A DNA stretch of 64,000 nucleotides, from assembly GCA_028293125.1 (NCBI GenBank), contig JAQGPJ010000102.1, positions 1-64,000 of the forward strand, given 5' to 3'. The notes under the pieces are model-generated. The model worked only from the letters and a program-made list of their open reading frames with translations, ran no database searches and had not been told where the DNA came from. The position numbers and the translations under genes are program-made. Position 1 is the first letter of the stretch. Each line of letters begins with the position of its first letter. Positions 53,437-64,000 of the stretch are shown here, piece after piece. Source of the DNA: Verrucomicrobiales bacterium. GTDB taxonomy: Bacteria; Verrucomicrobiota; Verrucomicrobiia; Verrucomicrobiales; V1-33.

Positions 53437-54996
53437 TCAGGAACCGGAGCCCGGGATGGAGGTGAGGCGCAGGCCCTTCAGATCACAGAGGGATCCGTCG
53501 CTTTTCGCCAGGGAATTGACGCGCAGAAGCAGGTGGTCCGAACCCTTGCCAATGGTGACCCTGCCAGGGCGGATGATGGTGGCGATTCCTCCCTCCCCAC
53601 CGGAGGCGACACTGATGGGCAGGGAGGCATCGGGCGTGGCGGATCCCCCGCCGCCCGTGCTGAAAAGACTGGCGGTGCCGCCGGTTTCAGGGGACAGACG
53701 GCATTCCAGCTCCACGTCATAGGTGCCCGGGGGAATGCCCAGTTTGGTGAGCTTCCAGATGATCTCGCAGGAGCCGGCGGGCCGCAGACGGATGAGGTAA
53801 TCCTTCTGGGAGGTCAGGCGCGCCTCGCCCCGGATGGTGGTGGCCAGGCTGTCATTGACCGGCAGCCTGAAAGTTATGGGCGTCAAAAGGGAGTCACCGC
53901 TGCCTTGCTCCAGACGTTTCTTCTCCTGCCGCAGCTGGGCCAGAGTGTCGGTGTCCTTTGTCAGGGGGATCCGGGCCTCCAAATCCGTGAGACTTTTCAG
54001 GTATTTGGCATTCAGAGTGCGGGTCTGCTCAGCGAACTGCCGTTGATAGACCTCCCTGAGATGGGTAAGTTCGATGTTGCTGAGGGGGGGGCGCGCAGTG
54101 GTGGGCAGGAGTTCCAAGCCCCGGAAATCCATCAGTCCCATGGGCTGGCAGTCCAGAGCCCGCAGGGAAATTACGGCCCGCGGGCCCGCGATCTCCACCA
54201 CTCCCAAGCTGAGTGTCTGGTAAACCTCCCAGCCACCGGTGGGTCTGATGGTGCGGTGCAGCACGGAGGGACCGGTGCCGGGACTCACCATGCGGAACTC
54301 CACAATACCGCCCCCGGCGTTGTTGCGGCGGGGCAGGGGCGGACCCGGCGGAACCACACCTTCCGGACCTCCTCCCGGCGGACGGAAAGGGGGAGGACCG
54401 GCGGACGGTTTTTGCAGAGGGTCCGGCTGGTCATTTTCATTACCAGGCCCCAGGGTGCCAAAGGTCAGCCGGACCTCGTAGAAACCGGACGCGGCGTTGG
54501 GAAGCTGCCACTCCAAGGCGCCGCCGGCCCTTTTAAAACGGAGATTTGGTTTTCCGGGCTCGGAATGCTCCACAGCGCCAATCATCCGTGCCTGATCGGA
54601 CCGCAGCTGCAGGGGGGACCGGGAGCCGTAGCCACTGCCCGTGTCCGGCATGCCATTGGGCCGCGCACCGCCCCGGAGGGAGAGCATCTTTTCCCGCACG
54701 CGGGCTGCTCCGGTGAGATCGCCGGCGGTGATACGCTGCTTCTCCAGAGCATTCAGAACCGTCAGCCACCGCTCCTGGGCGGCCTTTCCAGTATCGGTGA
54801 GCACAGACCGGTAGCGCTGCCTCAGCGCGGTGAGGGCGGAAGGATCCTTCAACGGGGATGCCGGCGCGGGAGCCTGGGCTCCGGAAATCACGGAAAGCCC
54901 GGCTGCCGTCAGTCCGAAGGCCAGCACCCCCGGCACAAGGCGGAGCCGCAGCGGCCACGGGAAGGCTCCAAACCGGGCAGCGGAGGAAAGCTTCAT
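53437..54996 (-). CDS. Exported protein with helical repeat and beta-sandwich domains (519 aa)
   Basis: Signal peptide with VPGVLAFGLTAAGLSVISGA; helical block with RYRSVLTDTGKAAQERWLTV and ITAGDLTGAARVREKMLSLR; first beta-sandwich (about 135-290, GFYEVRLTFGTLG and GGIVEFRMVSPGTGPS); a second helical block (about 295-355, LREVYQRQFAEQTRTLNAKY with a long coiled coil); second sandwich (about 365-519, PGTYDVELECRLSPETGG, IIRPGRVTIGKGSDHLLLRV). The sandwiches resemble carbohydrate- or protein-binding jelly rolls. Likely periplasmic or surface. Start ATG overlaps the previous gene's stop (ATGA). Confidence 0.75.
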   Translation of the reverse strand: MKLSSAARFGAFPWPLRLRLVPGVLAFGLTAAGLSVISGAQAPAPASPLKDPSALTALRQRYRSVLTDTGKAAQERWLTVLNALEKQRITAGDLTGAARVREKMLSLRGGARPNGMPDTGSGYGSRSPLQLRSDQARMIGAVEHSEPGKPNLRFKRAGGALEWQLPNAASGFYEVRLTFGTLGPGNENDQPDPLQKPSAGPPPFRPPGGGPEGVVPPGPPLPRRNNAGGGIVEFRMVSPGTGPSVLHRTIRPTGGWEVYQTLSLGVVEIAGPRAVISLRALDCQPMGLMDFRGLELLPTTARPPLSNIELTHLREVYQRQFAEQTRTLNAKYLKSLTDLEARIPLTKDTDTLAQLRQEKKRLEQGSGDSLLTPITFRLPVNDSLATTIRGEARLTSQKDYLIRLRPAGSCEIIWKLTKLGIPPGTYDVELECRLSPETGGTASLFSTGGGGSATPDASLPISVASGGEGGIATIIRPGRVTIGKGSDHLLLRVNSLAKSDGSLCDLKGLRLTSIPGSGS

Positions 54997-55799
54997 GGTC
55001 CGGTGGCGGTGGGAATGAGACGCACAGACCTGATCCTCAGATCATTGGCGGTGGATTCCGGCGTCACGGCTTTGAGTTCCAGGAACGGGGCATTGGCGTG
55101 CATCCGCAGAGTGCCCAAGGCCACCTTCCGCCAGCCCTCCGCATCCGGCGCAGGCGGAGCGGCGGAAGCAGTTTCGGAAGGGTTGCCCGTCCCTTTGTCC
55201 GCGCCGCCGAAGCGGCCTTCATCCCCGGACTTCAATGGGCGGCTGAGGGTGTGCAGGTTTCCGCTGACTTGAAAAACCGCGGCGCTGCCGGCGGAGTCCA
55301 CCGAAAGCCGGAAAGAGATCTCCACTTCATACCCGCCCTCCGGCAGGCCCGGCGGCAGCAGCCAGCGGGCGGCGGCTCCGGCGGCATCCCATCCGGTGAG
55401 CGCCTTGCCGGATTCGTCAGGCTTCACTCCGCCGGAGGTCTCCGCAGCCGCCGTCTCCAATGGCAGGCTGCCATCCGCAGCCACTTCCGGAGGAGCACCG
55501 GTTTTGGCAGCGGGGGCATCCGTTGAGGATTTCATCAGCTCCTCCATAGCCCTGCGCTCCTTCTGCACGGCGCGCACGCCCTCATAGTCGCCTTTGGATG
55601 CCAGCTTCTGTTCCAGTTCCTGCAGTGCCCGGCAAAATTCCCCGCGCAGCGGCAGCACCGTTTTGTCCACTTCCGCCGTGTGAGCTTTCTTCAAGGCATC
55701 AAAGGCGGCGGCCGGGGGCTGCGCGGCGGCCCACGGTCCGGTGCCAAGTCCTGTCATCAGGACTCCGGCAGGGAACAGACTGGCGGCGGCACTCCTCAT
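54993..55799 (-). CDS. Exported protein with helical repeat and beta-sandwich (268 aa)
   Basis: First gene of the leftward operon. The ATG at 55799 opens a signal peptide (AASLFPAGVLMTGLGTGPWAAA). Then one helical hairpin with AFDALKKAHTAEVDKTVLPL and LASKGDYEGVRAVQKERRAM, a Thr/Ala/Pro linker and a beta-sandwich with GGYEVEISFRLSVDSAGSAA, WRKVALGTLRMHANAPFLEL. It looks like a one-module version of the 519-residue protein behind it. The ATGA overlap with that gene suggests equal production. Function unknown. Confidence 0.75.
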   Translation of the reverse strand: MRSAAASLFPAGVLMTGLGTGPWAAAQPPAAAFDALKKAHTAEVDKTVLPLRGEFCRALQELEQKLASKGDYEGVRAVQKERRAMEELMKSSTDAPAAKTGAPPEVAADGSLPLETAAAETSGGVKPDESGKALTGWDAAGAAARWLLPPGLPEGGYEVEISFRLSVDSAGSAAVFQVSGNLHTLSRPLKSGDEGRFGGADKGTGNPSETASAAPPAPDAEGWRKVALGTLRMHANAPFLELKAVTPESTANDLRIRSVRLIPTATGP

Positions 55800-56148
55800 C
55801 GGATGTATTTTTGCCTGGCGGATTCCATCGCGCAATGCGCATTCCTGACCGCATCCGGCGCTTTCACCGGCCGGTCGGGAGGCGGCTTCATGGGAAATCC
55901 ATTCATTTTCCGCCCCGGGCCCATCCGCAAAGGCCGGTGACGGCAGCGGCCAAGCCACCGCCAACGGGCAAAGCGGTGTCAATCCGTGCAAAATGATGGG
56001 GTTTTTTGAGTAAAACCGCTCCGCAAATGCTGCGTGGAACACATCCGCGGGCAAAAAACTATTGAGCCGCGGAGCGCCACCGCTTATGGACTGGCTTGCC
56101 AACGCCGCAACCCTGGCTTCTCCCCCCATTTTCCCCCATTTCCATACC
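55800..56148. other. Divergent promoter region, operon versus citrate synthase
   Basis: 349 bases between two divergent starts. A small hairpin ggtttt...aaaacc lies at 56000-56017. No clean promoter boxes found for either direction; no gene in the interval. Confidence 0.4.
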
Positions 56149-57276
56149 ATGTCTCTTGTCGCCAAAGGTCTAGAAGGTATCGTCGCCAATGAATCCCGCC
56201 TCAGCGAGGTGGATGGAGCCAACGGGAAGCTCTGCTATCTCGGCTACAGCATTGATGACCTTGTGGAGCATACGACCTTTGAGGAGGTGGTGCATCTTCT
56301 TCACCGCGGCCATCTGCCCAATCAGACGGAACTGACCACCATCACGGAGGAACTGCGCAGCCACCGTTTCCTTCCTGCGGAGGTCACCAGCTTCCTGACC
56401 AGTCTGGCGAAGGACCTCGCCCCCATGACAGTTCTGCGCACGGCGGTCTCCCTGCTGGGCGCGCTGGATCTGCGCGGCGGCGATCAGGATGCAAAGCTGA
56501 ACGCGGAGCGCGCCGTGGCTCTCTGTGCGCAGATTCCGCTGATCATCGCCTGCTACCACCGCCACCGTCAGGGCCTGCCCTTTCCTGAAATCCGCAAGGA
56601 TCTCAGCGAAGCCGGCAGTTTTCTTTATTTGATAAGCGGTGAGGAGCCGACTCCGGAGGCCGTCAAAACCCTCGACGTGGCCTACATCATCCACGCCGAC
56701 CACGGGATGAACGCCAGCACTTTCAGCGCCCGCGTCACCATCGCCACTCTCAGCGACATGTATTCCGCCATCACCAGCGCCATCGGCACTCTCAAAGGGC
56801 CGTTGCACGGGGGGGCCAACGAGGGCGTGATCGACATGCTGCTTGAAATCGGAGAGGAGTCCGAAGTGGACGAATGGGTGGAGGACAAGCTGACGAAAAA
56901 AGCCAAGATCATGGGCATCGGCCACCGGGTTTATAAAGTGCTGGATCCGCGCGCCCCTCATCTTCAGAAAATGGCCATCAAGCTGACCGAGGAACTGGGC
57001 GAGCCGAAATGGATCCGCATGAGCGAGCGCATTGCCACCATCATGCGCGAACGCAAGAATCTCAACGCCAACGTCGATTTCTACAGCGCCACCGTGTATT
57101 ACAGCCTGGGCATTCCCACCGACCTTTTCACCCCCATCTTCGCCATCAGCCGCGCCGCCGGCTGGACCGCCCAAGTGCTGGAGCAGCTGGAGGACAACCG
57201 TCTCTACCGTCCGCTGACGGAGTACATCGGCCCGAAACCGCCGCAGCCGATCCTGCCGATCGGCCAGCGCCCGTGA
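56149..57276 (+). CDS. gltA: Citrate synthase (type II, citrate/2-methylcitrate group)
   Basis: 375 residues; condenses oxaloacetate and acetyl-CoA at the entry of the TCA cycle. Catalytic triad: His in TSAIGTLKGPLHGGANEG, His in IMGIGHRVYKVLDPRAP, Asp in LNANVDFYSATVYY; the substrate-binding HADHGMNASTFSARV is also present. Short N-terminus and length fit the archaeal/Gram-positive dimeric type that often also uses propionyl-CoA, so a 2-methylcitrate role is possible. I chose ATG 56149; earlier in-frame starts lack similarity. Its stop overlaps the fdhD start. Confidence 0.93.
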   Translation: MSLVAKGLEGIVANESRLSEVDGANGKLCYLGYSIDDLVEHTTFEEVVHLLHRGHLPNQTELTTITEELRSHRFLPAEVTSFLTSLAKDLAPMTVLRTAVSLLGALDLRGGDQDAKLNAERAVALCAQIPLIIACYHRHRQGLPFPEIRKDLSEAGSFLYLISGEEPTPEAVKTLDVAYIIHADHGMNASTFSARVTIATLSDMYSAITSAIGTLKGPLHGGANEGVIDMLLEIGEESEVDEWVEDKLTKKAKIMGIGHRVYKVLDPRAPHLQKMAIKLTEELGEPKWIRMSERIATIMRERKNLNANVDFYSATVYYSLGIPTDLFTPIFAISRAAGWTAQVLEQLEDNRLYRPLTEYIGPKPPQPILPIGQRP

Positions 57277-58169
57277 GTTCACCGGCATCGGTTTCGGTGC
57301 GACTCCAACGGCTGGTCCGCACGGACGCGGGAACGGTGTCCGCGGCTGATTTCCCTGATGAAGCCGCAGTTGAGGCTCCCCTGACCCTGCGCGTCGAGGG
57401 GCAGTCCGTGGCGGTGGTCATGCGCACCCCCGGCCACGACCGGGAACTGGCCGCCGGCTTTCTGCTGACGGAGGGAGTGATCCGGCACCGGCTGGATGTC
57501 TTTGAAATTTCCCTCTGTCCCTCCCTGGCCGGCAGCGGCGGTGGCAGTGAGGACTTTGGCGGCGGCAGCGTTGACGTGGTGCTGGCTGATCCCGCCGCGT
57601 GGGACCCGGCGCGTCTGACCCGACACGTCTTCACCTCCTCCAGCTGCGGGGTCTGCGGCAAAACGGATCTCACTCAGTTCCTGACCGCGGGTCACCGGCT
57701 GAATCCGAAGGACGGTCCCTTTATCACGGCAGACAGTCTTTTTCCTTTGCCCGCCAGGCTGCGGGAAGCCCAGCCGGCCTTCGAGGCCACCGGCGGCCTG
57801 CACGGCTGCGCTTGGTTTCCTCTGGAGGAGGGAGAGGACAGGGATGGAAAAACCTTTAAAAACACCACTGCAGCTCCAGAACTGGTTTTTGAGGATGTGG
57901 GCCGTCACAATGCCTTGGACAAGCTGATCGGCAGTGCCCTGCTGTCGGACAAACTGCCCCTCGCCCAGGGAGTTCTGCTGCTGAGCGGACGTGTCTCCTT
58001 TGAATTGATTCAGAAAGCCTCCGCCGCCGGTATTTCCATCGTGGCGGCTATCGGGGCCCCCAGCAGCCTGGCCATCGCCTGTGCCGAAGCCGCCGGAGTG
58101 ACGCTCTGCGGATTTTTAAAGGAGGGCCGGCTGAATCTCTACACCTGCCCGGAACGCCTCCGGCTTTGA
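57273..58169 (+). CDS. fdhD: Formate dehydrogenase accessory sulfurtransferase FdhD
   Basis: 298 residues; moves sulfur from cysteine desulfurase to the molybdenum cofactor of formate dehydrogenases. The GTG at 57273 overlaps the citrate synthase TGA (GTGA). Conserved blocks: VAVVMRTPGHDRELAAGFLL, the redox/transfer loop FTSSSCGVCGKTDL (the two Cys), TGGLHGCAWF, FEDVGRHNALDKLIGSALL, LLLSGRVSFELIQKASAAGI and AAGVTLCGFLK. A Gly/Ser-rich insert (SGGGSEDFGGGS) is unusual. No formate dehydrogenase gene is in the window. Confidence 0.92.
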   Translation: MSSPASVSVRLQRLVRTDAGTVSAADFPDEAAVEAPLTLRVEGQSVAVVMRTPGHDRELAAGFLLTEGVIRHRLDVFEISLCPSLAGSGGGSEDFGGGSVDVVLADPAAWDPARLTRHVFTSSSCGVCGKTDLTQFLTAGHRLNPKDGPFITADSLFPLPARLREAQPAFEATGGLHGCAWFPLEEGEDRDGKTFKNTTAAPELVFEDVGRHNALDKLIGSALLSDKLPLAQGVLLLSGRVSFELIQKASAAGISIVAAIGAPSSLAIACAEAAGVTLCGFLKEGRLNLYTCPERLRL

Positions 58170-58171
58170 AG

Positions 58172-58197
58172 GCCGCCGACCGGATTCGAACGGCGGC
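58172..58197 (+). terminator. Hairpin after fdhD
   Basis: gccgccg pairs perfectly with cggcggc around 12 bases, immediately after the fdhD stop. No T-run follows, so a terminator is only possible. Confidence 0.4.
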
Positions 58198-58217
58198 ATC
58201 CTCTCGATGACAAAACA

Positions 58218-58246
58218 TTGCACTGTGGAGAACGGGCAGATTATAC
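58218..58246 (+). promoter_or_regulatory. Sigma-70 promoter of the zinc-ribbon/HTH paralogue operon
   Basis: TTGCAC, 17-base spacer, TTATAC (TATACT one base on). Predicted start about 58253, 20 bases before the ATG at 58274. The best vegetative-type promoter I see in the window. Confidence 0.6.
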
Positions 58247-58273
58247 TGGCTGCCCACTCCCGATTATTTTCCA

Positions 58274-59857
58274 ATGTCCCTTACTCCCTCTCCGCAGGAT
58301 TGGCTGGTTCTTCAATGCCCGGCATGTGGCACCCGGATGAAATCGCGCCGCAATGTGGCGGAGGAGGGCACCGTGCTGCTGTGCCCCTCCTGCCGGCAGA
58401 CGGTGACCATCCCCGGTGCGGAGCCGGAGCCGGATCCCGGGCGGGCGCATGGCAATCCTCCAAACAGGGAGAAGGAGGAAACCCATCTGCCTGCAGGCCT
58501 CGGCCTGGGGCCTGACTTTCCACCGGAACGCCAGCGGCATCCAGCGGCCCCGAAGGAGAACAGCCCGGTCTTCCATCTGAAGGAAGGGGTGGTTTTTGAG
58601 GGGGGCAGGGTGCCGCTGAATTTCCCCTCAAAACCCCGGGAGCGTGTGGATGATTATTCCGGCGCACATCCGGAATTCGATGGCTCCGCTGCGGCGGAAA
58701 ACGACGACGATGGTGTCGGTGGAAAAAACTTTCCCCGCCAGGACCGCCGCGTGCGCATCAAACGCCGGCGGCGCGGCAATGAGAAAATCCACACAGAGGT
58801 GGCCGACTGGAACGACACTGATCTGGACCGTGTGCAGGAGGCTGAAACCGCGGCCGATGTCTGGGACAGCGTCAAAGCCATGCCTGACGATTATTCCTCT
58901 GATGGACAGGAATATGTGGTTGAAGGCCGGGAGGGCGCTCCACGGAAAAAAGTGAGCCGCCGCCGGGCACAGAAGGGAGGCCGGCTTTTTTTTCAGCGGC
59001 TCACTGTTCTGTCCAAATATCTAACCGCCGGCCTTGGCCTGCTGCTGGCGGGTGTGGCGGTCTACGGGATCATCATGCTCCGTAAAACTCCGCCTTCCGT
59101 CATTTCGCCATCCACACCGGCTCCGGCGGAGGAAACCATCGACCGCCGCGTGCTCACGGAGACGGATAGCCAGGGAGCTGAAAAAGCGGTCCGGGATTTT
59201 CTGGCAGCGGATGGGGTCGAGGCCAAACTGCGTCTGGTGCGCCTGCCGCAGCATGTGCGTCCCCTGATGGAAAAATGGTATCAAACCCATCCTCCGGGCC
59301 CGCTTAACGCGGGGCCAATTGACCTGAAGCAGAAAACAGGGGGGGATATCGGTTCGCCAGGTTACTTTGTCATTCTCGCTGTGCCGGTTCAAATGCCGGA
59401 CCCGTTGAACCGCGGCAGCACGGTGGAGGAGCTGACCTTCTTTTCCGTGGAGGAAATCCGCAAGGGCTCTGCCAGCACCTACCTTGTGGACTGGGAGACC
59501 TCCACCGGTTATCAGGAAATGCCATTCGAAACCTTTAAGGCAACTATGCCCAAGGAAGCCCACCGGTTCCGCGTTTTTGTGAAAAATGCTGATTATTACA
59601 ATCACAATTTCACGGAAAAGGATTGGCACTGTGTGGAGGTGTATTACCCCGGACGTGAACTCCGTCTCTGGGGTTATATCAGGCGGTCCGCCATTGAGGC
59701 GCGGATGCTGCTGATCAAACTGGAGTCAGGATGGGGTGGCGCCCTCATCGCGGAGCTTCAGTATCCGGAAAATTCCACCTCGCGTGATCAGGTGGTTTTA
59801 ACCCGCATGGTGCATCCTTCCTGGTATTACGCCGAAGGCGAGGAAATTGAGAAATAG
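58274..59857 (+). CDS. Membrane protein: cytoplasmic zinc ribbon plus paralogous C-terminal domain (527 aa)
   Basis: N-terminal zinc ribbon with LQCPACGTRMKSRRN and LLCPSCRQTV (C-x2-C pairs, residues 15-40), then about 200 residues of charged disordered linker (NFPRQDRRVRIKRRRRG), one transmembrane helix (about 250-275, YLTAGLGLLLAGVAVYGIIM) and an extracytoplasmic domain of about 235 residues (KLRLVRLPQHVRPLMEKWYQ, YLVDWETSTGYQEMPFE, VKNADYYNHNF, EVYYPGRELRLWGYIRRS, AELQYPENS). The last domain is clearly homologous to that of the next gene. Topology suggests a signal link between a periplasmic domain and a cytoplasmic nucleic-acid or protein-binding ribbon. Family unknown to me. Confidence 0.75.
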   Translation: MSLTPSPQDWLVLQCPACGTRMKSRRNVAEEGTVLLCPSCRQTVTIPGAEPEPDPGRAHGNPPNREKEETHLPAGLGLGPDFPPERQRHPAAPKENSPVFHLKEGVVFEGGRVPLNFPSKPRERVDDYSGAHPEFDGSAAAENDDDGVGGKNFPRQDRRVRIKRRRRGNEKIHTEVADWNDTDLDRVQEAETAADVWDSVKAMPDDYSSDGQEYVVEGREGAPRKKVSRRRAQKGGRLFFQRLTVLSKYLTAGLGLLLAGVAVYGIIMLRKTPPSVISPSTPAPAEETIDRRVLTETDSQGAEKAVRDFLAADGVEAKLRLVRLPQHVRPLMEKWYQTHPPGPLNAGPIDLKQKTGGDIGSPGYFVILAVPVQMPDPLNRGSTVEELTFFSVEEIRKGSASTYLVDWETSTGYQEMPFETFKATMPKEAHRFRVFVKNADYYNHNFTEKDWHCVEVYYPGRELRLWGYIRRSAIEARMLLIKLESGWGGALIAELQYPENSTSRDQVVLTRMVHPSWYYAEGEEIEK

Positions 59858-59920
59858 GTTGGTTTTTGCCGATGGCCCGGCGACCGTGCCGGACTCATTT
59901 TTCTCCGCGGCTGTCCTATC

Positions 59921-61333
59921 ATGTCCAAGCCCCCCCAGCGCAGCGTATTTCCCCCAGCCTCCGGGCCCGGCTCTGACGACGCCTGGTTTGAGGATTCCCG
60001 TCCGGACAGCCGGCAGGAGGACCCGCTGCAGGTGAAAGCCCAAGGCGGCAGAGCCCATACGCCAGCATCCTTCCCGAACCCTGGCCAGACTCCTGAGCCC
60101 GGTTCCCAGGTGGCACCACGCCAGCAGCGTGCCGACATTTTTGAACAAAATCCCCTTTCCCAGGTCAGCCACCAGCTGGACTCCGCCGCGCTGGCTCTGA
60201 TGGAGGACAGCGAGCGCGTGCGGGAGGCCGTGCGTGCCGTGGTCGAGCGTGGCGGGGATCTGCGGCAGGCGGCCCGCGATTGGAAGGTGGCTCCCAGTTC
60301 CGTCGCCGAGTGGCGTGAAAGGTATTACGAACTTCTTCAGCAGGACAGCATCGCCACCACCGGGGTGGCACTGTTCGAGCCTGATATCCGCCGGGATGAC
60401 ATGGACCTGGTGAGAATCCCGGAGACGGCCCGTGTCCGTTTTCTCGATAACTGGGAGCGGCTGGTGCAGGAAACAGTCTCCTCCCCGGCGGCTTTCATTC
60501 AAAGCCCCCGGCAGGTTTTTCTAGAGAACTCCTGGCTCACCTGCTGGTTGTACGAGGACGGGGAGTTGGACAAAGGCATTCTCGCCGGGGTCATCAGCGG
60601 GGCGGTGGCGGTGGTCATCACTCTTTCCTTTCTTGTGGCCCGGCAGGCCTCTCCGGCTGTCGTTTACACGCCATCACCGCCATCCGCGGAGGCGGGAGGA
60701 ACAGACGGCACTCTGACGGATCAGGCCGTTCTGGCAGCCCAAGCCTTTTTCCAGGCTCCCAACTGGCAGGAGCGGTTGAAGCTGGTGCGCCACCCTGAAA
60801 CCGTGCGCGCCGGCATGGAGCGCTATTACAGCACCCATCCTGACGGCCCCATTGCGGACGCTAAACTGATCATGGGCCTGAATTCAAGAAAAGTCACCAG
60901 CCTGAACTTTGAAATTCCTTCCCAAAACCGGTCCCATTTTTTGAACATCGCCTATGAAAATGGGGCTTGGCTGGTGGACTGGGAAAGCTCGTCCCTGTTT
61001 CAGGAGGAGAACCTCAGCATTCTCCGTGAACGGAAATCCACCGAGCCGGCCCGTATCGCGGTCACAGTCACCAAAAACGACAGCTATTACAATTACGCCT
61101 TCAGCGACTCCTCCAAATGGACCGGCTTTGAACTGGCCTACCCCGGGCTTCCCATGACCCTTTACGGATACACGCTAAGAGACAGCCAGCTCACCATTGA
61201 TCTGGAAGCCATGCTGGGCATTCTCAAAAAACAGTCTGTCATTCTGGAGGTCCGTTATCCGGAAAATGCCAAGTCCGACAATCAGGTCGAGATTCTGAGG
61301 ATTCTCGGTGAAGAGTGGATTCCCGGTATTTGA
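59921..61333 (+). CDS. Membrane protein: cytoplasmic HTH plus paralogous C-terminal domain (470 aa)
   Basis: Companion of the previous gene, 63 bases downstream. N-terminal Pro/Ser-rich tail (1-80), then a helix-turn-helix region (about 100-140: VREAVRAVVERGGDLRQAAR, DWKVAPSSVAEWRERYYELL) like those of transposase/IS-type HTH proteins, one transmembrane helix (about 225-247, GVISGAVAVVITLSFLVARQ) and the shared domain (ERLKLVRHPETVRAGMERYY, THPDGP, AWLVDWESSSLFQEE, VTKNDSYYNYAFSD, LAYPGLPMTLYGYTLRDS, VRYPENA). The arrangement resembles one-component ToxR-like membrane regulators, but binding to DNA is not proven. Function unknown. Confidence 0.75.
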   Translation: MSKPPQRSVFPPASGPGSDDAWFEDSRPDSRQEDPLQVKAQGGRAHTPASFPNPGQTPEPGSQVAPRQQRADIFEQNPLSQVSHQLDSAALALMEDSERVREAVRAVVERGGDLRQAARDWKVAPSSVAEWRERYYELLQQDSIATTGVALFEPDIRRDDMDLVRIPETARVRFLDNWERLVQETVSSPAAFIQSPRQVFLENSWLTCWLYEDGELDKGILAGVISGAVAVVITLSFLVARQASPAVVYTPSPPSAEAGGTDGTLTDQAVLAAQAFFQAPNWQERLKLVRHPETVRAGMERYYSTHPDGPIADAKLIMGLNSRKVTSLNFEIPSQNRSHFLNIAYENGAWLVDWESSSLFQEENLSILRERKSTEPARIAVTVTKNDSYYNYAFSDSSKWTGFELAYPGLPMTLYGYTLRDSQLTIDLEAMLGILKKQSVILEVRYPENAKSDNQVEILRILGEEWIPGI

Positions 61334-61402
61334 ACTCCGCGAACCGCTCCAAGCCCGGGGTGAAAACCGGAAAAACCGCTTACCGCTTCCCGGCCCCCCG
61401 GC

Positions 61403-62206
61403 TCATTCCACAGTCACCTGGGACATATCCCACGCGGGGGCGGGATACTTCAGCTCCAGTTTGGCCAAGGTTTCACCGATAATGCCGGCAATTACAGCGT
61501 TGCGGTAATACTTGCGGTTGGCGGGCACTACAAACCACGGAGCCTCGGCGGTGGAAGTGCGGCTGAGGACATCCTCATAAGCGTCGGTGAACTGCGGCCA
61601 CAACCGACGGTCAGTGATGTCGTCCGGGTTGAATTTCCAATGCTTGTCCGGATTTTGCAGCCGGGACTGCAGCCGGCGGCGCTGCTCCTCGCGGGAAATG
61701 TGCAGAAAGAACTTCAGGATGGTGGTGCCCTCATCCACCAGCATGCGCTCGAAATTCACAATGTGGCTGTAACGCTTCTCCCACACGGTTTTGGGAGCCA
61801 GATTTTTGACATTCACCGCCACCACGTCCTCATAATGACTGCGGTTGAAGACCACGATCTCCCCTTTGGCCGGGACTTCGCGGTGGATGCGCCACAGGAA
61901 ATCGCGGTCCAGCTCCTGGGCAGTGGGTGATTTGAAGGAGACCACGCGCAGCCCGTGCGGATCGATACCGTTGAAGACGTGGCGCACCGTGCCGTCCTTG
62001 CCGCTGCCGTCCATCCCTTGCAGGACAATCAGCAGCCGGTGGCGGCGCTCCGCGTAGAGCATGCGCTGGAGATGCTGCAGCTCCGCCTTCAGCCGGTCCA
62101 GTTGGGCCAAGCCGCGCTCCTTGTCGCCGGCGAGCTCGGTTTCGCCATTGGAATCGAAATCAGTGAGCTTCACCCTGGTGCCGGGCCGGATACGGTAAAT
62201 CTTCAT
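61403..62206 (-). CDS. ppk2: Polyphosphate kinase 2 family protein
   Basis: 267 residues, PPK2 family (polyphosphate:nucleotide phosphotransferase). Walker A LIVLQGMDGSGKDGTVRHVF, Walker B/lid VFNRSHYEDVVAV, and FLHISREEQRRRLQSRLQNP with PDDITDRRLWPQFTDAYED. The single-domain length and the Asn/Asp pattern point to class III-like enzymes that phosphorylate AMP/ADP using polyphosphate, but class should be tested. Converges on the HTH paralogue gene. Confidence 0.92.
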   Translation of the reverse strand: MKIYRIRPGTRVKLTDFDSNGETELAGDKERGLAQLDRLKAELQHLQRMLYAERRHRLLIVLQGMDGSGKDGTVRHVFNGIDPHGLRVVSFKSPTAQELDRDFLWRIHREVPAKGEIVVFNRSHYEDVVAVNVKNLAPKTVWEKRYSHIVNFERMLVDEGTTILKFFLHISREEQRRRLQSRLQNPDKHWKFNPDDITDRRLWPQFTDAYEDVLSRTSTAEAPWFVVPANRKYYRNAVIAGIIGETLAKLELKYPAPAWDMSQVTVE

Positions 62207-62328
62207 GCGGGAATGCGAACCGATTTTCTGGGCGGCCCCTCCCCATGCAAGAGCAAATGTCCGTGCCTTGCATGTGGCCGGCGGGCGTTATAAGATGGCG
62301 GGCACCCACGCCCCACTTTTTTGCCGCC

Positions 62329-63081
62329 ATGACACGCCCCTCCTTTATCCGCCTCATGCTGCTGCTGCTGTCAGGTCTGGCGGCCGCAGTCCCGCTGACA
62401 GCACAGGCCCAGGTTTCGAAGCGCGACTATGCGCGGGAGGAGTATTTGATTCTCAGCGGCGGCCCCTCCCTGCGAACCTGGGAGGACTACCGTCTGGCCG
62501 CGGACCGGCATGACCGTTACTGGGGCAATTTCATCCGCTCCGCCCGCATCCGCATTGATCAGCTGCGCCGCATCCATGGGGACGCCATGCAGATCACCTG
62601 GATGGTTTACCGCCCGGGCTATGAAAGCCGTCAGCGGGAGGACACCGTGAGGAGGCCGGAATACTCCTGCACTACGGCGGAAATCGCCCAGTTGGCCTCC
62701 GAACGGAAAGTGAAACTGGTGTGGTTCAGCACCAAGGACGCGGTCATCAACTATCTCAACAACCGCGGCGGGCGGAAGCTGAGCGGCTTCGAGTTCTACG
62801 GCCACTCCAACAAGTACTGCTTTCTCTTTGATTACAGCAATGACATCCTCGGCGCCTCCACCTGCTACCTGCACTGCCTGGATCTGAAACGGCTGCACCG
62901 CGGCCTTTTCACCCGCGACGCCACCGTGCAGAGCTACGGCTGTCACACCGGCGAATACATGAGCGGTGTCTGGAAAAAATACACCGGCCACCCCATGATC
63001 GGAGCCTGCGGCAAAACCGACTTCTCCGCCATTAAGGACAATGTCACCCTGCCAGTCGTGAATGGCCGCTGGTCACAGTAA
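62329..63081 (+). CDS. Secreted protein, possible caspase-like cysteine hydrolase (250 aa)
   Basis: Start ATG 62329 gives a signal peptide (FIRLMLLLLSGLAAAVPLTA) ending AQA. The mature part begins YLILSGGPSLRTWEDYRLAA, followed by a Trp/Arg region (RYWGNFIRSARIRIDQLRRI). Two motifs stand out: SGFEFYGHSNKYCFLFDYS (hydrophobic strand then His) and TVQSYGCHTGEYMS (strand then Gly-Cys), spaced about 50 residues. That is the order His, then Cys, of caspase/CHAT/clostripain folds. Conserved Cys (GASTCYLHCL, IGACGKTD) might form disulfides. Assignment is inferred from the motif order only. Own terminator follows. Confidence 0.55.
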   Translation: MTRPSFIRLMLLLLSGLAAAVPLTAQAQVSKRDYAREEYLILSGGPSLRTWEDYRLAADRHDRYWGNFIRSARIRIDQLRRIHGDAMQITWMVYRPGYESRQREDTVRRPEYSCTTAEIAQLASERKVKLVWFSTKDAVINYLNNRGGRKLSGFEFYGHSNKYCFLFDYSNDILGASTCYLHCLDLKRLHRGLFTRDATVQSYGCHTGEYMSGVWKKYTGHPMIGACGKTDFSAIKDNVTLPVVNGRWSQ

Positions 63082-63085
63082 CGGG

Positions 63086-63119
63086 AGGCGGTTTCCACCA
63101 AGGGAAGCCGCCTTTTCTC
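63086..63119 (+). terminator. Terminator of the possible caspase-like gene
   Basis: aggcggtttcc pairs with ggaagccgcct (one G-U) over a 6-base loop, then tttctctc; 5 bases past the stop. Confidence 0.75.
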
Positions 63120-63158
63120 TCTTCAGACTTCAAATCCGCACCAAGGGCATGCGCAGAC

Positions 63159-63193
63159 AAAAAAGCCCCCGGAAAATTCGTATTTCCCGGGGG
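63159..63193 (-). terminator. Terminator of the second PEP-CTERM gene
   Basis: Stem cccccggaaa with tttcccggggg (small bulge), followed by TTTTTT on the minus strand; 76 bases after the stop at 63269. Confidence 0.85.
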
Positions 63194-63268
63194 ATGTGCT
63201 GTTGGAGAACAGAATTGGAAATCCGCAGGCGGTAATTGCTCCCGGCACCAGCGGATGCGGACCGACGG

Positions 63269-64000
63269 TCAGGCGCGTCTTTTCCGTCGGAGGGACACGG
63301 CCGCGAATCCCACCAGGGTGAGAAGCGCACCGCTGGCTTCCGGCACCGGGGCGCCGACTTGGAAATTATCCGTCCAAGTGCGGTCTTCGCCTGCGGCCAG
63401 TCCGGCACCGGCACCCACGAAGGCGTTTGAGAAGTTGGCGTAAATGCCGCCCGCGAAGGTGTTCAGGTCCACCACCCCCACCGAGGATTGATTGACGTAA
63501 AGCTCCAGACGCTTGCCGTCCATGTCATAATGCACCGCGTAATTGTACCACTGCCCGGCAGTGATGCCGGTGTTGATTCCCGGGATGGCGGTGTCGGTGG
63601 CACCATTGAAAAGCGAGGCCCCGCCCCCGGTTCCGCGGAAGAAAACGGAAAGGGAATTGCTGCCGAAAATGCCGATGGAGGCTCCGGAACTGATATCAAT
63701 GCGGTCGCCGACCTGCACGGCATCCACTTGGACGACATAACTGCCACGCAGACCGTAGGGAAGACCATAGTCCACCCCCCCGCCCGTCTGGGTGATGCCT
63801 AGAATACTGCCGGCTCCGCTGCCGCCAGGATATTTGGGGGTGCCATCAACCAGACCGGCACCATCGGAGGCAAAGCTGAAAGCGCCGACCGGCCCGAAAC
63901 TGATGGAGGGTTTGCCGTAGGTGTTCTCCACGACATAAGCCGGGGCCGGCTGGGCGGCTGGCGTGCTCGGGCGGTCAGGCCTGCCGCCCTGTTCGGTCTG
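63269..64000 (-). CDS. PEP-CTERM protein with LamG-like domain, 5' end off window
   Basis: Partial gene; the frame is open to the window edge (APAYVVENTYGKPSISFG), so the GTG at 63931 is probably internal. The visible part is one LamG/concanavalin-like sandwich (GLRGSYVVQVDAVQVGDRID, WYNYAVHYDMDGKRLELYVN, DRTWTDNFQVG) ending in the sorting tail VPEASGALLTLVGFAAVSLR followed by RKRRA; the P-E motif is followed by Ala instead of Pro, and the helix and Arg cluster are intact. Likely processed by exosortase. Surface or matrix protein; ligand unknown. Confidence 0.82.
   Translation of the reverse strand, partial: QTEQGGRPDRPSTPAAQPAPAYVVENTYGKPSISFGPVGAFSFASDGAGLVDGTPKYPGGSGAGSILGITQTGGGVDYGLPYGLRGSYVVQVDAVQVGDRIDISSGASIGIFGSNSLSVFFRGTGGGASLFNGATDTAIPGINTGITAGQWYNYAVHYDMDGKRLELYVNQSSVGVVDLNTFAGGIYANFSNAFVGAGAGLAAGEDRTWTDNFQVGAPVPEASGALLTLVGFAAVSLRRKRRA

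Follow-up and report, generated by a model that had tools for sequence, protein, structure and literature searches.

Among described systems, those most comparable with the locus reported here are the co-component signal transduction systems, which include ToxR/ToxS, VtrA/VtrC and TcpP/TcpH (PMC9214523). In ToxR/ToxS and VtrA/VtrC, two genes encode single-pass proteins that form a heterodimeric sensor of the envelope with direct access to DNA (PMC9214523). Two further proteins share part of this architecture: RodZ, a bitopic protein whose helix-turn-helix (HTH) binds MreB, not DNA (PMC6946637), and RsgI9, a transmembrane anti-sigma factor with an extracellular NTF2-like domain (PDB 7sjy; PMC12203970). 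The two adjacent genes described here lie in a window of 64,000 nucleotides, the whole stretch of Verrucomicrobiales DNA that was analysed, and encode P1, a zinc-ribbon protein, and P2, an HTH protein. The original prediction, that no system of this kind had been described, was too strongly worded, as ToxR/ToxS and VtrA/VtrC are comparable (PMC9214523); unlike P1 and P2, however, these have neither mutually homologous outer domains nor a zinc ribbon.

The genes for P1 (527 aa, 58274..59857) and P2 (470 aa, 59921..61333) were defined by ORF calls and orthologue alignment and, like all features of the pair given below, are on the + strand. A sigma70-like promoter, TTGCAC-N18-TATACT (58218..58247), is located about 26 nt 5' of the P1 start codon, and its first base is where the originally noted interval begins. 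In four genomes of the genus, the orthologous pair is likewise preceded by a TTGC-type -35 element and a T/A-rich -10 element, and the promoter call rests on this conservation because a promoter scanner with a stricter rule did not report 58218-58247. The gap between the P1 and P2 genes is 10-63 nt at nine loci with orthologous pairs, including that of the source genome. This close spacing and the promoter-like sequence agree with the earlier proposal of a common operon, and P1 and P2 appear to share one operon behind their own promoter. A larger operon that would take in citrate synthase, FdhD or PPK2 was rejected: none of these genes adjoins the pair in relatives, the pair has its own promoter, and its 5' neighbour looks like ispE, not FdhD, in four members of the genus. 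A terminator-like hairpin between the two genes (59877-59892) was not accepted as a transcript end, since such sites were little above the shuffled count (7 observed versus 4.5 in shuffled sequence, sd 1.8) and the gap in relatives is just 10-52 nt. No conserved palindrome was seen 5' of the pair in an operator search, and an Rfam scan of 56000-64000 gave no match.

Several other genes around the pair encode secreted-looking proteins. A 278 aa protein at 62245-63081 (+ strand) has no Pfam match, and its GHSNKYC and YGCHTGEY motifs recall clan CD peptidases. Two adjacent proteins at 53437-54996 and 54993-56222 (both - strand) are alike in build and have no Pfam family above cut-off, and a LamG-like protein at 63269-63931 (- strand) has a C-terminus that, from the translation read by eye, is PEP-CTERM-like.

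The zinc ribbon of P1 (residues 13-43, 58310..58402) consists of two conserved CxxC knuckles (CxxC...CxxC, residues 15-40), and all four cysteines are invariant in an alignment of 11 orthologues. Single Pfam models matched it weakly (best 0.002), and no single zinc-ribbon or specific transcription-family model was above cut-off in Pfam and NCBIfam scans; the zinc ribbon that had been read from the sequence is thus borne out by its invariant cysteines. A basic stretch (residues 223-248, 58940..59017) immediately precedes the transmembrane helix (residues 249-270, 59018..59083; Kyte-Doolittle 2.11, orthologue alignment), which is the single hydrophobic transmembrane stretch of P1 and is N-terminal to the outer domain. 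The net charge of about +10 in orthologues just before this helix places the N-terminus of P1 probably in the cytoplasm.

P2 carries a homeodomain-like HTH sequence of the kind found in DNA-binding regulators (residues 98-142, 60212..60346). The Pfam match in the source protein alone was weak (0.024); eight of nine orthologues matched HTH_Tnp_1 (best 6.1e-7) and eight of nine HTH_23 (best 1.9e-6), so that the HTH assigned to this protein is recovered through its relatives. No segment of P2 is better conserved than the HTH (mean identity among orthologues 52%, versus 39-44% in the outer halves), which is therefore under selection. Its net charge averages -0.7 in the nine orthologues versus +3.2 in ten other HTHs of the source genome (Mann-Whitney p 6e-4), a contrast that is indicative, as the nine orthologues are not independent, the controls include MerR-type HTHs and the compared stretches are only roughly equal. 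A near-neutral HTH is unusual for a DNA binder. AlphaFold2, run without orthologues for this region, gave a low-confidence model (pLDDT about 50 or below). Because the HTH is conserved, yet near-neutral, and the HTH of RodZ binds protein, the chances that P2 binds DNA seem to us, from sequence, about evenly balanced.

Between the HTH and the membrane, P2 has a conserved juxtamembrane segment, F..NWERLV...VFLQTS.LTSWLY.DG.LDR (60401..60586, 49% mean identity in orthologues), which is also present, in diverged form, in HTH proteins of genus g15. The single hydrophobic transmembrane stretch follows at about residues 220-242 (60578..60646; alignment, orthologue hydropathy 1.7-2.9) and is likewise N-terminal to the outer domain. 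Each protein therefore has the one membrane span foreseen for it, and the predicted common topology extends to P2 by homology: the K/R counts flanking its own helix do not decide the orientation, so the HTH side is placed in the cytoplasm, tentatively, because P2 is homologous to P1.

The outer domains of P1 and P2 are homologous, as had been proposed (BLASTP E 3e-26, about 280 aa, 30% identity), and the motifs LVRxP, THPxGP, VDWExS, YYN, YPG and YPEN occur in the same order in both. AlphaFold2 modelled the outer domain of P1 from 54 sequences with pLDDT 90 and pTM 0.83, and for that of P2 the block means were mostly pLDDT 84-97. In these models, the first half (P1 residues 292-417, 59147..59524; P2 residues 263-360, 60707..61000) begins with helices and continues as a curved sheet of four strands, the arrangement of the NTF2-like cone fold. 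VIA matched it moderately to the NTF2-like domain of PBP5, for both P1 (Z 10.6, rmsd 2.8, 103 residues) and P2 (Z 9.7, rmsd 2.5, 95 residues), and further matches of P1 were PBP2a, Csd6, Pgp2 and RsgI9 (Z 8.8). The second half (P1 residues 418-519, 59525..59830; P2 residues 361-470, 61001..61330) is modelled with the five strands of an OB fold in the order b1-b2-b3-a-b4-b5. In P2 it matched residues 1-99 of AsnRS (VIA Z 9.2, rmsd 3.3, 90 residues), where Z values near 9-10 are moderate, and Foldseek listed OBody OB domains (highest probability 1.00), with every E-value >= 0.001. By model, the outer domain is thus NTF2-like plus OB and falls structurally within both superfamilies.

By sequence, the outer domain matched no family above curated cut-off in Pfam and NCBIfam and no convincing solved structure in the PDB. 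One 54-residue PDB match, to a sperm microtubule protein (0.0012), was dismissed as chance, with no stretch passing alone. A known enzyme as the identity of the outer domain was rejected, given the absence of Pfam and NCBIfam families above cut-off and of PDB matches of weight, and both predicted halves are binding folds with no catalytic site evident in the models. The profile search and structure prediction that had been suggested as checks of the outer domain therefore returned neither a curated family nor evidence of an enzyme.

A profile search of the source genome with the outer domain found exactly six copies: P1, P2, three with a zinc ribbon (C31, C55 and C79) and one without (C82). 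The observed pair is real, but its outer domain is not confined to these two genes. Among relatives, 53 of 57 genomes carry the outer domain, and copy numbers reach 25. It was found in 35 of 45 sampled Verrucomicrobiales genomes (the 45 being counted from the kinship column of the genome listing) and in none of about 343 other genomes of the phylum; well over a hundred copies occur in the order. The named contigs that carry it are Verrucomicrobiales or other Verrucomicrobiota records; two of them, CAMDJM010000019.1 (L141) and CALQSQ010000004.1 (L142), are titled Akkermansia muciniphila, species names that look wrong.

The N-termini of the family are varied, with a zinc ribbon in most members, an HTH in few and basic or unstructured stretches in others, so that the search for paralogues with other N-terminal modules was positive; the majority of members are without an HTH. 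Seven members without a zinc ribbon or a recognised HTH (L101, L112, L117, L119, L107, L123 and L126) have in common a short motif before the transmembrane helix (S.LTW or P.LG...) that, by eye, resembles that of the HTH protein. The 25 copies occur in G029, of genus g15, on several contigs such as L205, and some of their N-terminal regions are of unfamiliar fold without a Pfam match. A literature search found no paper describing the outer-domain family. These results establish a conserved, modular protein family that is new to description, in which the pair of zinc-ribbon and HTH genes is the HTH-bearing branch in one bacterial family.

In that bacterial family, the pair was found in 10 of 13 genomes (the source genome, G001-G006, G008, G009 and, at contig ends, G011), with varying flanking genes. 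It is absent from G012, a genome 75% complete, and from the two genomes of genus g4 (G007 and G010), which keep the zinc-ribbon gene without the HTH gene and have a convergent, ptsI-like gene next. A diverged HTH member is present in genus g15 of another family (HTH-profile E 3e-13 to 1e-11); at the two loci read closely, this gene is unpaired and lies behind an EamA-like transporter. The proposed co-occurrence of the two genes therefore holds in most genomes of the family, but each is also found alone, the HTH gene in g15 and the zinc-ribbon gene in g4. In quick trees of the outer domain, P1 and P2 orthologues formed separate clades (SH-aLRT 99-100 for P2 and 84-89 for P1), so the duplication is old. 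Tandem pairs recur in other clades, with two zinc-ribbon genes at eight loci of f3-like genomes, one of which has a second gene without the zinc ribbon, and with a zinc-ribbon gene and a plain gene at ten loci in f2. That tandem pairs arise again and again is the strongest argument, drawn from gene order, for members of the family working in pairs.

The comparison with co-component systems shows a common plan with different parts. As in those systems, two adjacent, co-oriented genes in one apparent operon form a cassette of two single-pass inner-membrane proteins, of which one has a cytoplasmic HTH, and by analogy the outer domains of P1 and P2 are likely to pair. However, the outer domains of P1 and P2 are homologous to each other, whereas a co-component system combines a VtrA/ToxR-type domain with a lipocalin-like one, and the modelled NTF2-like plus OB domain of P1 is not lipocalin-like. 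The HTH of P2 is homeodomain/transposase-like (HTH_Tnp_1 / HTH_23), not CadC/OmpR-like, the HTH gene comes second instead of first, and P1 carries a zinc ribbon, which co-component partners do not. Because a CadC/OmpR-like HTH and a lipocalin-like partner are both missing and a zinc ribbon is present, the pair is not a member of the co-component systems; it may work alike.

P2 also resembles RodZ in being bitopic, with an N-terminal cytoplasmic HTH, a juxtamembrane stretch and an outer domain, but its HTH family differs from the HTH_25 of RodZ. Pfam scans of nine P2 orthologues did not report HTH_25, and a RodZ-type HTH_25 protein is encoded elsewhere in the source genome, at C102, so P2 was rejected as a RodZ orthologue. 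We know of no homologous partner gene alongside RodZ. With RsgI9 the pair shares a cytoplasmic output, one transmembrane helix and an extracellular NTF2-like domain, but an OB fold is modelled for the second half where RsgI9 has an S1C peptidase-like domain, and Pfam scans of P1, P2 and their orthologues showed no RsgI domain. The NTF2-like (MecA_N type) domains of PBP5 and PBP2a, with PBP5 the best fold match to the first outer half, are, like that half, membrane-proximal; unlike these proteins, P1 and P2 are without a transpeptidase domain, and no sequence similarity was detected.

The reading that we favour, at somewhat less than even probability, is that P1 and P2 form a membrane-anchored envelope regulator pair. 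Each protein would span the inner membrane once, with its NTF2-like plus OB domain in the periplasm, where the outer domains would associate, as homodimers or a heterodimer, and bind a ligand in the envelope, which might be peptidoglycan, polysaccharide or lipid. Altered association might then be relayed through the transmembrane helices to the HTH of P2, which, at the tip of a disordered tether, would act on DNA or a partner protein, while the zinc ribbon of P1 would serve as a second contact in the cytoplasm, tuning or stabilising this action. The overall logic would be co-component, by analogy with ToxR/ToxS, built from duplicated outer domains. This reading is favoured by the homology of the outer domains and their confident model, the NTF2-like domain in RsgI9, the retention of the pair in 10 of 13 genomes despite changing flanks, its own promoter, the conservation of the HTH and the other tandem pairs. 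It is weakened by the near-zero charge of the HTH, the unpaired HTH gene of g15, the g4 zinc-ribbon gene without an HTH partner, the lack of an upstream palindrome and the predominance of family members without an HTH.

The same charge and the same scarcity of HTHs in a multi-copy, order-wide family with modular N-termini speak for a RodZ-like envelope scaffold, a possibility that we hold tentatively. Here the HTH and the zinc ribbon would bind cytoplasmic proteins (cytoskeleton, divisome or biosynthetic enzymes) and the outer domains the cell-wall machinery, leaving DNA untouched. RodZ itself is a precedent (PMC6946637), and the wall enzymes PBP5, PBP2a, Csd6 and Pgp2 are among the proteins that best match the NTF2-like part in fold, although a common fold is no proof of common function. 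The homeodomain/transposase type of the HTH and the separate HTH_25 protein argue against a scaffold of this kind, and the neighbours of the pair are not consistently wall genes. A signalling role of the pair is plausible, with the scaffold close behind.

It is unlikely that P1 and P2 are tandem duplicates without physical pairing, each acting singly with its own cytoplasmic partner, their adjacency a relic of duplication and co-transcription. The solitary HTH gene of g15 and zinc-ribbon gene of g4, and the growth of the family by duplication, would fit this, but adjacency has been retained across the bacterial family while the flanks change, the two proteins are not recent copies but members of old, separate clades, and two further families have tandem pairs from other clades. 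Sigma/anti-sigma-like control, in which the zinc-ribbon protein would itself bind RNA polymerase or a sigma factor and the HTH protein would be its promoter-specific partner, is very improbable: RsgI9 offers an NTF2-like outer domain and zinc ribbons are found in transcription factors, but no sigma gene adjoins the pair at the source locus or in relatives, and the zinc ribbon matches no specific transcription family above cut-off.

The regulator pair that we favour retains part of the original prediction, a heterodimeric envelope sensor that reaches DNA or RNA polymerase directly. That interpretation is partly supported as a whole, and direct contact of the pair with RNA polymerase found no support. 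A broader proposal, which we consider rather doubtful, is an order-wide envelope-receptor kit, in which a duplicated NTF2-like plus OB domain would be joined to exchangeable cytoplasmic modules (zinc ribbon, HTH and others), the composition of hetero-oligomers would set the output, and an envelope signal would pass to DNA directly without a kinase or sigma factor.

Verrucomicrobiales are a widespread aquatic and gut group in which, to our knowledge, envelope sensing has been little studied. The family described here has no Pfam or NCBIfam entry, reaches 25 copies in one genome and is spread through the order. If the pair signals to DNA, the co-component logic of enteric bacteria would have arisen separately, from a duplicated receptor; if it does not, a new family of envelope scaffolds is indicated. 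On either reading, the set of paralogues offers clear, testable targets.
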